41,432 nt of DNA, taken from assembly GCA_905479625.1 (NCBI GenBank), contig CAJQNF010000021.1:1-41432 (forward strand), written 5' to 3'. This stretch comes from an uncultured Flavobacteriaceae bacterium (lineage in GTDB: Bacteria > Bacteroidota > Bacteroidia > Flavobacteriales > Flavobacteriaceae). The notes below the pieces were generated by a model. That model was not told where the DNA came from and did no database searches. It saw only the letters and a list, made by a program, of their open reading frames with translations. Shown piece after piece: positions 10,470 through 17,603 of this stretch. Each line of letters begins with the position of its first letter. The first letter of the stretch is position 1. A program made the translations under genes and the position numbers.

Positions 10470-11897
10470 TTAAAATGTAAGCTTTTTTGTCAATTCATCA
10501 ACATACTTCCGGAACTGCTTATCTGTTTCAGTAAGGTTATCCACAGTTTTACAAGCGTGAAGTACAGTTGCATGGTCACGACTTCCAATCTGAGAACCAA
10601 TACTCGCCAAAGAAGCTTTGGTCATCCTCTTAGCAAAGTACATCGCTAGTTGCCTGGCCTGCACAATATGACGCTTTCTGGTTTTTGATTGAAGTGTTGT
10701 AACATCCATTTCAAAATACTTGGACACTACCTTTTGAATATAATCAATGGACACCTCTTTTTTCGTATTCTTAACAAACTTGTCTACAATTTGTTTGGTA
10801 AGCGATAGGGTGAATTCTTTTCTGTTAAAGGATGCTTGAGCAATTAAAGAAATCAGAACACCTTCCAACTCACGAACATTCGTTTTAATGTTCTTGGCTA
10901 TATATTCAACAATTTCCTCAGGAATCTCTACACCATCCCTGAACATTTTACTTTTTAAGATACTGATCCGCGTTTCAAAATCCGGAGCTATCAGCTCGGC
11001 GGAAAGACCCCATTTGAATCTTGACAACAAACGCTGCTCAATATCCTGCATATCAACAGGAGCCTTGTCAGAAGTAAGTATTACCTGCTTTCCATTTTGG
11101 TGTAAATGATTAAAAATATGGAAGAAGACATCCTGTGTTCCTGATTTCCCCGAAAGGAATTGGACATCATCCACGATCAATACATCAATCATTTGATAAA
11201 AATGAATGAAATCATTTCTCGTATTGGCTTTTACCGAATCTATAAACTGTTGGGTGAATTTTTCTGCTGAAATATATAGCACCGTTTTTTCAGGATACCT
11301 TTCTTTAATGCGCACACCTATAGCCTGGGCTAAATGAGTCTTACCTAGACCCACTCCTCCATAGATCAGTAAAGGGTTGAAAGAAGTCCCACCCGGCTTA
11401 TTAGAAACAGCCATACTCGCTGATCTTGCCAATCGATTTGAATCTCCTTCAATAAAATTTTCAAAATTATAATTAGGGTTTAATTGGGATTCGATCTTTA
11501 CCTTTTGAATTCCAGGAATCACAAAAGGGTTCTTTAATTCCCGTTTATCAATTTCGAGCGGAATAGTAACTCCTTGCGAGTTAAACGGTTTCTTATTTGA
11601 ACTTGGAAACTTAACGGTATGAGGATTTTTATTACTGTACGTATTTTCCATCCTTACATCATACACTAATTTAGCATGATCTCCCAATTCTCTTATCAAG
11701 GCAACCCTTAATAATTTAATGTAATGTTCTTCCAACCATTCAAAAAAGAATTTACTGGGAACCTGTATGGTTAAGACGTCTCCAGCTATCTTCATCGGCT
11801 TAATAGGTTCGAACCATGTTTTATAGGCTTGAGGTTTGATATTATCCTTTATAAAAAGCAGACAATTATTCCATACAGAAGAGGCTGTTCTCGTCAT
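10470..11897 (-). CDS. dnaA: chromosomal replication initiator DnaA
   Basis: AAA+ initiator that binds DnaA boxes at oriC and opens the origin. In 475 residues it has the N-terminal domain I (CLLFIKDNIKPQAYKTWFEPI), a variable linker, Walker A GGVGLGKTH (180-188), Walker B IVDDVQFL (241-248), and the domain IV helix-turn-helix with the signature IGSRDHATVLHACKTV. It has no dnaN neighbour; it is followed by the phosphatase and methyltransferase genes. Only one perfect DnaA box was noticed nearby, inside its own coding sequence, so the origin is not evident here. Confidence 0.97.
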   Translation of the reverse strand: MTRTASSVWNNCLLFIKDNIKPQAYKTWFEPIKPMKIAGDVLTIQVPSKFFFEWLEEHYIKLLRVALIRELGDHAKLVYDVRMENTYSNKNPHTVKFPSSNKKPFNSQGVTIPLEIDKRELKNPFVIPGIQKVKIESQLNPNYNFENFIEGDSNRLARSASMAVSNKPGGTSFNPLLIYGGVGLGKTHLAQAIGVRIKERYPEKTVLYISAEKFTQQFIDSVKANTRNDFIHFYQMIDVLIVDDVQFLSGKSGTQDVFFHIFNHLHQNGKQVILTSDKAPVDMQDIEQRLLSRFKWGLSAELIAPDFETRISILKSKMFRDGVEIPEEIVEYIAKNIKTNVRELEGVLISLIAQASFNRKEFTLSLTKQIVDKFVKNTKKEVSIDYIQKVVSKYFEMDVTTLQSKTRKRHIVQARQLAMYFAKRMTKASLASIGSQIGSRDHATVLHACKTVDNLTETDKQFRKYVDELTKKLTF

Positions 11898-11999
11898 TTA
11901 ATTAAAATATTTTGAATTAAGTATAGTTCCCTTTTTCCCGACAAATTAGGTCTCCCTTTTGCCTTTACAAATTTGTGAATAAAGTTTATTATAAAAAAA

Positions 12000-16140: not shown

Positions 16141-16491
16141 ATGGAAAATTTAGTAAATTTTGTACAGAAGGAATTCGTAGCAAAAAATGATATTCCTGAT
16201 TTCGCTGCAGGTGATACAATTACCGTTTACTTTGAAATTAAAGAAGGTGTTAAAACAAGAACTCAATTCTTTAAAGGTGTTGTAATTCAAAGAAGAGGTA
16301 GTGGAAGTTCTGAAACCTTCACTATCAGAAAAATGTCAGGTACTATTGGCGTAGAAAGAATCTTCCCAATTAACCTTCCTGCTATTCAGAAAATAGAGGT
16401 AAACAAAAGAGGAAAAGTAAGAAGAGCAAGAATATACTACTTCAAAAATCTTACAGGTAAAAAAGCACAAATCAAAGAGAAAAGATTTTAA
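16141..16491 (+). CDS. rplS: 50S ribosomal protein L19
   Basis: Ribosomal large-subunit protein at the 30S/50S interface. The 116 residues show the full family: FVAKNDIPDFAAGDTITVYF, KEGVKTRTQFFKGVVIQRRG, TFTIRKMSGTIGVERIFP and the basic C-terminus VNKRGKVRRARIYYFKN. It is followed by a strong terminator and appears to be a single-gene transcript. Confidence 0.97.
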   Translation: MENLVNFVQKEFVAKNDIPDFAAGDTITVYFEIKEGVKTRTQFFKGVVIQRRGSGSSETFTIRKMSGTIGVERIFPINLPAIQKIEVNKRGKVRRARIYYFKNLTGKKAQIKEKRF

Positions 16492-16515
16492 TCGAGTTTC
16501 TCAATCCAATAACGA

Positions 16516-16548
16516 CCCCTTTTATCCAATGATAAAAGGGGTTTTTTT
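16516..16548 (+). terminator. Rho-independent terminator of rplS
   Basis: Perfect 11-bp stem: CCCCTTTTATC (16516-16526) with GATAAAAGGGG (16531-16541), a CAAT loop and a 7-T tract. It begins about 25 nt after the L19 stop. Confidence 0.92.
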
Positions 16549-16605
16549 ATGAACAAAAGTTAATAAGAGTAGTTGATACAATGTTCAAAACATATTTTAC
16601 AATTA

Positions 16606-16637
16606 TTTGATAAAAAGCATCTTAGTACTTACATTTG
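16606..16637 (+). promoter_or_regulatory. consensus Bacteroidota promoter upstream of a gene-free region
   Basis: TTTG (16606-16609), a 20-nt spacer and TACATTTG (16630-16637) reproduce the flavobacterial -33/-7 consensus exactly. No protein gene follows; the next downstream terminator is at 16981-17030. A transcription start near 16643 is predicted. Confidence 0.6.
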
Positions 16638-16814
16638 AAACAGAAACGAAGGGGTGATTCTGATTTAAGTACCTCAGGGGATGCAAATCTTCCGTAGATA
16701 CGAAAAACAGAAAACGAACTTGGTTTTGCTAAGGCGAATGCTTTAGCGCAATTTGCTGATCATAAAATAAAATCAATGTATTTAGCATACAGATTTAAAC
16801 GTTAAGGTTAGTGG

Positions 16815-16845
16815 TTGCAATTAAATGTTTTGAATCTTATATTTG
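16815..16845 (+). promoter_or_regulatory. second promoter inside the gene-free region
   Basis: TTG (16815-16817), a 20-nt spacer and TATATTTG (16838-16845). Predicted start near 16851; with the terminator at 17030 this gives a transcript of about 180 nt. Confidence 0.5.
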
Positions 16846-16980
16846 AGGTTGTCGGCATTTCGGTGAAGGTAATCGCTATAAAAGACTCTAAATATTTAAA
16901 GAAATCAGCGCTTGAAATTTAATTATTGGAACATGAAAATGTGAGGATAAGTGATCAATTTTAAGCTAAATGTTTCGGCA

Positions 16981-17030
16981 AATACCCATGATAAATAAGG
17001 AAACTTTTTTATGATGGGTATTGTTTTTTT
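16981..17030 (+). terminator. terminator hairpin ending the candidate small RNA
   Basis: AATACCCAT (16981-16989) pairs with ATGGGTATT (17014-17022), extended by two further pairs after one mismatch; the loop is 18 nt and a 7-T tract follows (17024-17030). No coding gene lies between the rplS terminator and this one. Confidence 0.65.
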
Positions 17031-17463
17031 GGCAACTTCGAAATAAAATTTGCTCATTCATAAACCGAGATTGTCGTTGATAAACTAAAATGCCTACCGA
17101 TAACTAAAATTAAGCTTATTAACAAATGTTAATAAGCCATGTTTATAACCTGTTCACTTTTTTATTCTTGTTTTGTAATCTCTTGTGACTCTGTTCATTT
17201 AAATTTGTTTGAGTCTTTGAAACTTATGGAACGAACCCCTATTAATAGGTTATGAAAATTGTTTCATGAAAAGTAATTGACTTTAGATTAATTTCTAATG
17301 CTGTTTTTTGATGAAAAATACTGAAGTGTTTAGCGCAAATTATCTTTAGTTACGCGAGAAATAGCGATTTATAGGGTTATTAATGATATACTAAACATTA
17401 AGTCCCCCCTATTTTAAATCAAAGCGACATTTAAATACTATTAAGTGTTGTTAACCAAACCAG
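17031..17463. other. gene-free region with palindromes upstream of icd
   Basis: No credible gene. It holds a perfect 24-nt inverted repeat GCTTATTAACA-AA-TGTTAATAAGC (17114-17137), the palindrome CCTATTAATAGG (17238-17249), an inverted repeat ATGAAA-ATTG-TTTCAT (17252-17267) and a -7-like TAAATTTG (17200-17207) whose upstream TTTG is at a non-ideal 24-nt spacing. It ends at a strong terminator-like hairpin, so a second short transcript is possible. Confidence 0.35.
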
Positions 17464-17505
17464 AAAGCCATAATAAAGTTCATCTTTATTATGGCTTTTA
17501 ATTTT
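17464..17505 (+). terminator. strong terminator hairpin upstream of icd
   Basis: A 15-bp stem: AAAGCCATAATAAAG (17464-17478) with CTTTATTATGGCTTT (17484-17498), loop TTCAT, followed by T-rich sequence. Nothing coding lies directly upstream, so it must end either an unrecognised RNA or read-through. Confidence 0.75.
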
Positions 17506-17595: not shown

Positions 17596-17603
17596 TATAT
17601 TTG
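17596..17603 (+). promoter_or_regulatory. -7 promoter element of icd
   Basis: TATATTTG lies 21 nt before the icd ATG at 17625. It shows that an in-frame TTG at 17601 is part of the promoter and not a start codon. Confidence 0.55.

Follow-up and report, generated by a model that had tools for sequence, protein, structure and literature searches.

Two predicted tandem RNA genes between rplS and icd of a flavobacterium and their recurrent four-box putative control element with a possible link to DnaA

The genes rplS (16141-16491) and icd (start around 17625) are separated by a noncoding gap of approximately 1.1 kb in the window, i.e., the whole 41,432-nucleotide stretch of DNA which we have analysed. 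The nearest named relatives of the host genome (assembly G000; 2.67 Mb, 84% complete) are Lutimonas; at the loci of L. halocynthiae (L032) and L. saemankumensis (L033) the downstream sequence is the same as in the genus members G004 and G014. Judged by sequence, the gap contains not one but two tandem structured RNA genes. Each predicted unit would consist of a 44-bp array of boxes, a sigma-A promoter, a structured RNA (about 390 and about 290 nt, here RNA1 and RNA2) and an intrinsic terminator. A preliminary description of this DNA had proposed a small-RNA gene between rplS and icd, and RNA1 with its conserved promoter, terminator and covarying helices bears this out as far as alignments go. 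RNA1 does lie inside the segment delimited then (16549-17033), which ends too early, however, and misses the second array, a third TAnnTTTG, RNA2 and its terminator. The upstream box array and its wide distribution had been overlooked. The features are as follows.

10470-11897, minus strand: dnaA, the nearby replication initiator gene, given for context (Pfam Bac_DnaA, Bac_DnaA_C, DnaA_N).
16514-16548, plus strand: intrinsic terminator of rplS (terminator scan; stem and T-run there in most alignment rows).
16547-16590, plus strand: box array 1, TTATGAACA / AGTTAATAA / AGTTGATAC / TGTTCAAAA, box gaps 2, 4 and 2 bp (scan against control windows).
16606-16637, plus strand: RNA1 promoter of the flavobacterial sigma-A type, TTTG-N20-TACATTTG (TAnnTTTG in 18/18 loci).
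16642-17030, plus strand: RNA1, predicted structured noncoding RNA of about 390 nt (start inferred from the promoter).
16678-16691, plus strand: hairpin H1 of RNA1, 16678-16682 with 16687-16691 (92% of cells paired; two-sided changes in 2/5 pairs).
16728-16747, plus strand: hairpin H2 of RNA1 (two-sided changes in 7/8 pairs).
16753-16814, plus strand: helix H3 of RNA1, 16753-16761 with 16806-16814, around a conserved loop (two-sided changes in 4/8 pairs).
16778-16788, plus strand: GTATTTAGCAT, in the H3 loop of RNA1, a candidate contact site (exact in 16/18 rows, not in L013 and L014).
16977-17030, plus strand: intrinsic terminator of RNA1, stem-loop and T-run (two-sided changes in 6/15 pairs; 97.8% of cells paired).
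17116-17159, plus strand: box array 2, TTATTAACA / TGTTAATAA / TGTTTATAA / TGTTCACTT (pattern search).
17200-17207, plus strand: RNA2 promoter element, TAAATTTG, at an offset of 84 bp from the array 2 start.
17212-17502, plus strand: RNA2, predicted structured noncoding RNA of about 290 nt (start inferred from the promoter; in 17/18 loci).
17380-17451, plus strand: hairpins of RNA2 at 17380-17401 and 17424-17451 (two-sided changes in 10/17 pairs).
17463-17502, plus strand: intrinsic terminator of RNA2 (two-sided changes in 8/16 pairs).
17596-17603, plus strand: probable icd promoter element, TATATTTG (by inspection).

Relatives of RNA1 were retrieved by DNA search, with rplS directly upstream, from 17 of 22 genus genomes and from the MAG L083, which matches none of these genus genomes; together they form an alignment of 18 rows. 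The five genus genomes which gave no RNA1 locus are 61-77% complete. Four rows (L013, L016, L018, L026) remained below the inclusion threshold of a single-sequence nhmmer search (E 0.017-0.044), thus their assignment to the family is based on position, promoter, terminator and alignment. The span from TAnnTTTG to the terminator is 382-422 nt. The first of two promoters proposed in the preliminary description is present at the predicted place, with TTTG at 16606-16609 and TACATTTG at 16630-16637. Its TAnnTTTG, which in F. psychrophilum is the reported sigma-A consensus for positions -12 to -5 (PMC9723704), is conserved throughout, but the upstream TTTG is missing from some rows, e.g., L011, L013 and L026. 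The hairpin and T-tract taken for a terminator at that time recur in all 18 aligned loci.

RNAalifold predicts four helices for the RNA1 alignment. In the consensus structure 93.1% of cells pair, and the search for compensatory changes suggested earlier yielded two-sided changes in 19 of 36 pairs. The cells with two-sided changes number 81 vs 27.5 (sd 4.4) after shuffling, a level reached in 0/500 shuffles, where the structure is favoured by its derivation from the same alignment and the shuffles ignore relatedness. Pairing falls to 36-47% when the partners are slid by 1-3 columns. Single-sequence folding of the stretch, which was initially said to be hard to explain as spacer, is above chance (z = -4.8 for the 395 nt 16638-17032; z = -3.95 for 16638-16975, without the terminator). 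The promoter pattern taken alone is not: TTTG-N19..21-TANNTTTG has four matches in the window vs 1.5 expected, and 9/100 shuffles reach four. Altogether RNA1, with promoter, terminator and covarying helices, has the appearance of a genuine noncoding RNA gene.

RNA2 was found, complete with its terminator, in 17 of the 18 loci with lengths of 277-294 nt, the exception being L014; in L008, of the possible promoters, the one located 84 bp from the array was chosen manually. The folding z-score is -5.8. Two-sided changes affect 23 of 39 pairs and 73 cells, compared to 20.9 (sd 3.7) in shuffled alignments (0/500 as high), counted on a structure to which one hairpin was added by eye. A motif like GTRTTTAGC is common to most rows of RNA1 and RNA2, and a motif related to GTATTTAGCAT occurs in RNA2 as well as in L037, L042, L063 and L094. 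A scan of the 18 rows for open reading frames of at least 20 codons found none in RNA1 or RNA2 which is conserved in position beyond a few rows; the most widely common place is shared by three related rows. With a promoter and a terminator of their own and no such conserved reading frame, RNA1 and RNA2 present themselves, by sequence and conservation, as putative trans-acting sRNAs.

Do these RNAs belong to a known family? The covariance-model search proposed earlier, 6S-Flavo included, returned no family at its gathering score in the gap; the sole match in the window is the L19-Flavobacteria ribosomal-protein leader (RF03130; 16083-16110, 47.8 bits) upstream of rplS. A permissive scan gave 21 matches, all under the gathering scores. 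When 20 loci of the family and 16 of other families were scanned with Rfam 15, none of the matches corresponded to these RNAs; they comprised only the L19 leader and Flavo-1, both outside RNA1, RNA2 and their relatives. The Flavo-1 RNAs (RF01705) are located near rplS at L043:2709-2855, L068:2788-2860 and L082:5756-5827, in L043 and L068 upstream of it. The absence of tmRNA and RNase P RNA signatures noted initially is corroborated, as both RNAs lie elsewhere in most genus genomes. For tmRNA (RF00023) there was no match in the window, ARAGORN reported none, and 17/22 genus genomes have above-cut-off matches elsewhere; the host assembly, 84% complete, has sub-cut-off matches only (best 32.3 bits). 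RNase P RNA (RF00010) was located elsewhere in 20/22 genus genomes, in the host on G000:C16. 6S-Flavo (RF01685) does not match in the gap; its match in the host genome, on G000:C117, scores 82.4 bits, just below the cut-off of 85. In the open-licence literature we found no report of an rplS-linked or DnaA-controlled RNA in Bacteroidetes.

Each RNA is preceded by an array of 44 bp with four 9-mer boxes starting at 0, 11, 24 and 35, that is, spaced by about one, or slightly over one, helical turn. The consensus reads TTATTAACA, TGTTAATAA, then two more copies of the second kind. Boxes 1 and 2 are inverted and constitute a 20-bp palindrome, boxes 3 and 4 are direct repeats. Both RNA promoters (TAnnTTTG) begin 83-84 bp after the array start. 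The exact palindrome TTATNAACANNTGTTNATAA is a single site in the 2.67-Mb host assembly, namely array 2; a slightly looser form is encountered in the window at the two arrays only (0.01 matches expected). With at most one mismatch the palindrome is confined to the rplS locus in 4/6 genus genomes, with additional sites in G004 (one) and G000 (two); with two mismatches 3/6 genus genomes are no richer than a reversed-pattern control. Since mismatch-tolerant palindromes match elsewhere, specificity is a property of the complete element only. In a 44-mer scan of about 1.1 Mb of G012 stretches the arrays scored 38.0 and 37.7 bits and the next site 10.2 bits, array 1 of G012 being part of the training set, array 2 not. 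Many arrays are followed by a single CTAA. Control by LexA was considered and rejected because the Bacteroidetes LexA-like motifs are GGA-N5-TCC and CTAA-N5-TTAG (PMC8565304).

The array extends far beyond the genus. We collected 92 distinct rplS loci, the 18 of the alignment and a further 74, mostly from Flavobacteriaceae or its genera, which were picked by rplS similarity, not by the array, and from which six duplicates had been removed beforehand. Behind rplS in 54 of the 74 an array is present which exceeds 99.9% of 1601 control windows, 16-68 nt past the end of the rplS match; in L080 it is found at 234 nt. No array was detected in the first 200 nt at the other 20 of these 74 loci, or within 3 kb at 19 of all 92, including both Flavobacterium loci (L070, L079). 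An exact TAnnTTTG is positioned at offset 83-85 in 39 of 91 arrays vs a total of four at other offsets between 40 and 159. Matches in five of six letters occur at offsets 83, 84 and 85 in 47, 28 and 12 of the 91 arrays, and at offset 56 in 24. A model of array plus promoter built on sequence only matches in 227 of 299 family genomes and 184 of 236 genera, and in 31/31 of its best family loci (L153-L183) rplS is directly upstream.

Behind the array, 71 of 73 loci have one or more terminator-like stems with a T-run, according to a scan with loose criteria and no shuffled control which failed to pick up the terminator of RNA1 in L013 and L014. RNAs of about 250-640 nt are implied; a length near 500 nt is common, and GCCATATCA..TGATATGGC is often present. 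In Tenacibaculum (L034, L054) the rplS-linked RNA is apparently shortened to about 250 nt. Common k-mers such as AACGTTCTT are found in 32/56 regions vs none in a reversed control. A model of the RNA1 core, R1 (alignment without L014 and L083), matched only the three genus genomes among the 299, with 10 candidates scored per genome, so that the case for homology of the RNA bodies across genera is built on short motifs and position. A consensus fold of 42 non-genus RNAs, restricted to those of 440-520 nt with a fitting terminator, gave no structure besides one short hairpin and the terminator; L014, L037, L038 and L060 were left out of a further alignment (A4). The module resides behind rplS in most sampled Flavobacteriaceae and apparently drives RNAs of about 250-640 nt.

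Sequence matches indicate that the module recurs in other families of the class. Of 295 class genomes 63 match the array-plus-promoter model at E <=0.01, three of them from the own family; many of the 63 are close to the E limit and probably due to chance. At 1.2e-5 or better 15 genomes in six other families match. By inspection, about 10 other-family loci have an array, mostly a TAnnTTTG at the usual distance, and an RNA-like stretch of 500-650 nt; a 5' motif like GGGATAAAA is present in 7/44 other-family loci. A different arrangement emerges in one of these families, f35, where the model, trained only on rplS-linked arrays, matches in 29/100 genomes (30 loci). In 26 of the 30 the gene downstream of the array is dnaB (L186, L189, L190, L194, L273-L289, L292, L294-L297; Pfam DnaB confirmed on L189), compared to 0/14 loci of other families.

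The consensus box TTATNAACA is identical to the DnaA box in its N form, TTATNCACA, except for one base; single boxes differ more. The arrays of the window contain no exact TTATNCACA, and among the 276 boxes of 69 rplS arrays it occurs in five. In the same 276 boxes 9/9 exceptions to the consensus at the differing position carry the DnaA base, three of these coming from related genus rows and two from one locus. In 42 arrays of other families, counted without two of 44 which were too weak (L200, L201; below the 8-bit limit), the DnaA base accounts for 10/17 exceptions, the remaining seven being five first boxes, which in our reading are shifted by one base, and two boxes with C. The 16 RNA2 arrays do not vary at this base (0/64). 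As a plain count, the DnaA base is present in a total of 19 of 26 boxes which vary there. A DnaA box has been given as TTATCCACA (PMC11317965); two f35 arrays contain it exactly, L279 before dnaB and L291 not before dnaB. Upstream of dnaA we find a single DnaA box, TTATTCACA (window 11974-11982), and the same box is in the matching stretch of G012 (2333319). In E. coli the pairs of boxes preferred by DnaA, situated at replication genes, have spacings of 2 or 3 bp (PMC11317965). In the array, with its gaps of 2, 4 and 2 bp, the pairs at 2 bp are boxes 1-2 (inverted) and 3-4 (direct).

We consider it highly likely that the gap carries two tandem RNA units whose transcription would be switched by the arrays, whose RNAs would act in trans and whose array protein is probably DnaA or another replication-tied factor. 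Relative to the inferred start site the array would cover about -95 to -50, the usual place of an upstream activator, thus the bound protein most likely activates transcription. The targets of the RNAs would then be mRNAs or an RNA-binding protein, contacted through motifs which are conserved and unpaired, e.g., GUAUUUAGCAU. On balance we see in them a new RNA class, regulated and probably acting in trans, for which DnaA may provide a tie to replication. That the protein reading the array is DnaA itself we regard as quite possible, at slightly less than an even chance. With the same reserve we propose that DnaA, probably in its ATP form and on deliberately weak boxes, activates class-wide large noncoding RNAs, and dnaB in another family, so that the RNA level would report initiation potential in Bacteroidia.

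A dedicated activator other than DnaA, which binds the arrays and controls the RNA genes by a GacA-like logic, is a serious contender, if below even odds. The arrays are almost the sole good sites in the genus genomes tested, two neighbouring RNA genes have one element in common, and the 20-bp palindrome of boxes 1-2 is typical of dimeric regulators. Yet a factor serving these RNAs only leaves unexplained why dnaB follows this array and promoter in 26/30 f35 loci and why the boxes vary mostly toward the DnaA box. The nearby dnaA, about 4.6 kb away, the DnaA-like boxes and the presence of two arrays within 0.6 kb might also suggest a replication origin or a DnaA-titrating site with incidental transcripts. 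We deem this very unlikely: the spacing of the promoters is conserved, as are the covariation of the RNAs and the terminators, and the origin lies far from the locus in the single-contig genomes G012 (near 0 Mb vs rplS at 2.34 Mb) and G190 (near 1.0 Mb vs 0.03 Mb). These positions derive from strand-corrected GC skew, used because the raw skew from 20 samples was ambiguous; in neither genome is the minimum at the rplS locus. In G012 no such array was seen close to the origin defined by skew, and the stretches around the skew origins of both genomes showed no cluster of standard DnaA boxes, by criteria which must be called strict since they also failed to flag the G012 arrays. G190 has one loose cluster at 0.41 Mb, which is not near the origin of this genome, and the 44 sites of TTATCCACA in G012 showed no clustering. 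Titration of DnaA may take place in addition to transcription.

Flanked by rplS and icd, the gap could consist of untranslated parts of its neighbours, the 3' end of rplS and the leader of icd, or of small protein genes. This is most improbable, as rplS ends in a terminator of its own, the two RNAs are equipped with a promoter and a terminator each, in 6/18 loci (L011, L014, L015, L016, L018, L026; loci reaching about 1.5 kb past the match) no icd was found downstream of the RNAs, and positional conservation of reading frames of at least 20 codons ends after a few rows. The preliminary description envisaged two overlapping sRNAs made from two promoters with one shared terminator. Its second promoter, TTG-N20-TATATTTG at 16815-16845 on the plus strand, does exist as a sequence (TATATTTG at 16838-16845), yet 17 of the 18 aligned loci have no TAnnTTTG at this place and the match is ascribed to chance. 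Because this internal promoter is not conserved, the RNA of about 180 nt derived from it and the shared terminator fail together, and overlapping sRNAs have hardly any likelihood left; two separate tandem RNA genes are the predicted arrangement.

The two tandem units with their arrays follow a logic like that of known regulated sRNAs; what would be new is the RNA class with its unusual control element. RsmY and RsmZ titrate a protein. Pseudomonas genes of the rsmX/Y/Z type have in common an upstream activating sequence which is palindromic and may be bound by GacA (PMC2375449), and thus offer a precedent for several sRNA genes under one palindromic element; they differ in phylum and element, and the RNAs described here are tandem and longer. 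CcnA of Caulobacter is a cell-cycle noncoding RNA at the origin, presumably activated by CtrA (PMC8959179), and likewise ties an RNA gene to the control of chromosome replication, whereas the present locus is near dnaA, not at the skew-defined origin, and its box is DnaA-like. EcpR1 of Sinorhizobium modulates cell-cycle regulation (PMC4414408); it differs in being a stress-induced trans-sRNA. These likenesses are by description; sequence comparison was by Rfam scans only. In the E. coli DnaA regulon (PMC11317965) double boxes are 2 or 3 bp apart, comparable to the array pairs 1-2 and 3-4 at 2 bp, but they are modelled in tandem, whereas boxes 1-2 are inverted and TTATNAACA is one base off. The Rfp sRNAs of F. 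psychrophilum, e.g., Rfp18, are independent flavobacterial sRNAs with the same promoter type, but have a median of 176 bp, and rplS is unmentioned in the main text (PMC9723704); moreover, the two Flavobacterium rplS loci examined are without an array. 6S-Flavo (RF01685) shares the status of a flavobacterial noncoding RNA, a housekeeping one, but has 108 model positions and its match in the host genome is on another contig.

Large, conserved and regulated noncoding RNAs outside the housekeeping set are rare. The RNAs considered here are without a match in Rfam 15 though the module is present in about three quarters of the sampled family genomes (227/299) and in further families. Should DnaA be the protein which reads the array, this would open a clear way to study the coupling of gene expression and replication in these bacteria. 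For such work the dnaB promoter of f35 is a ready test promoter for the array; in the f35 loci read by eye the leader before dnaB is very short.
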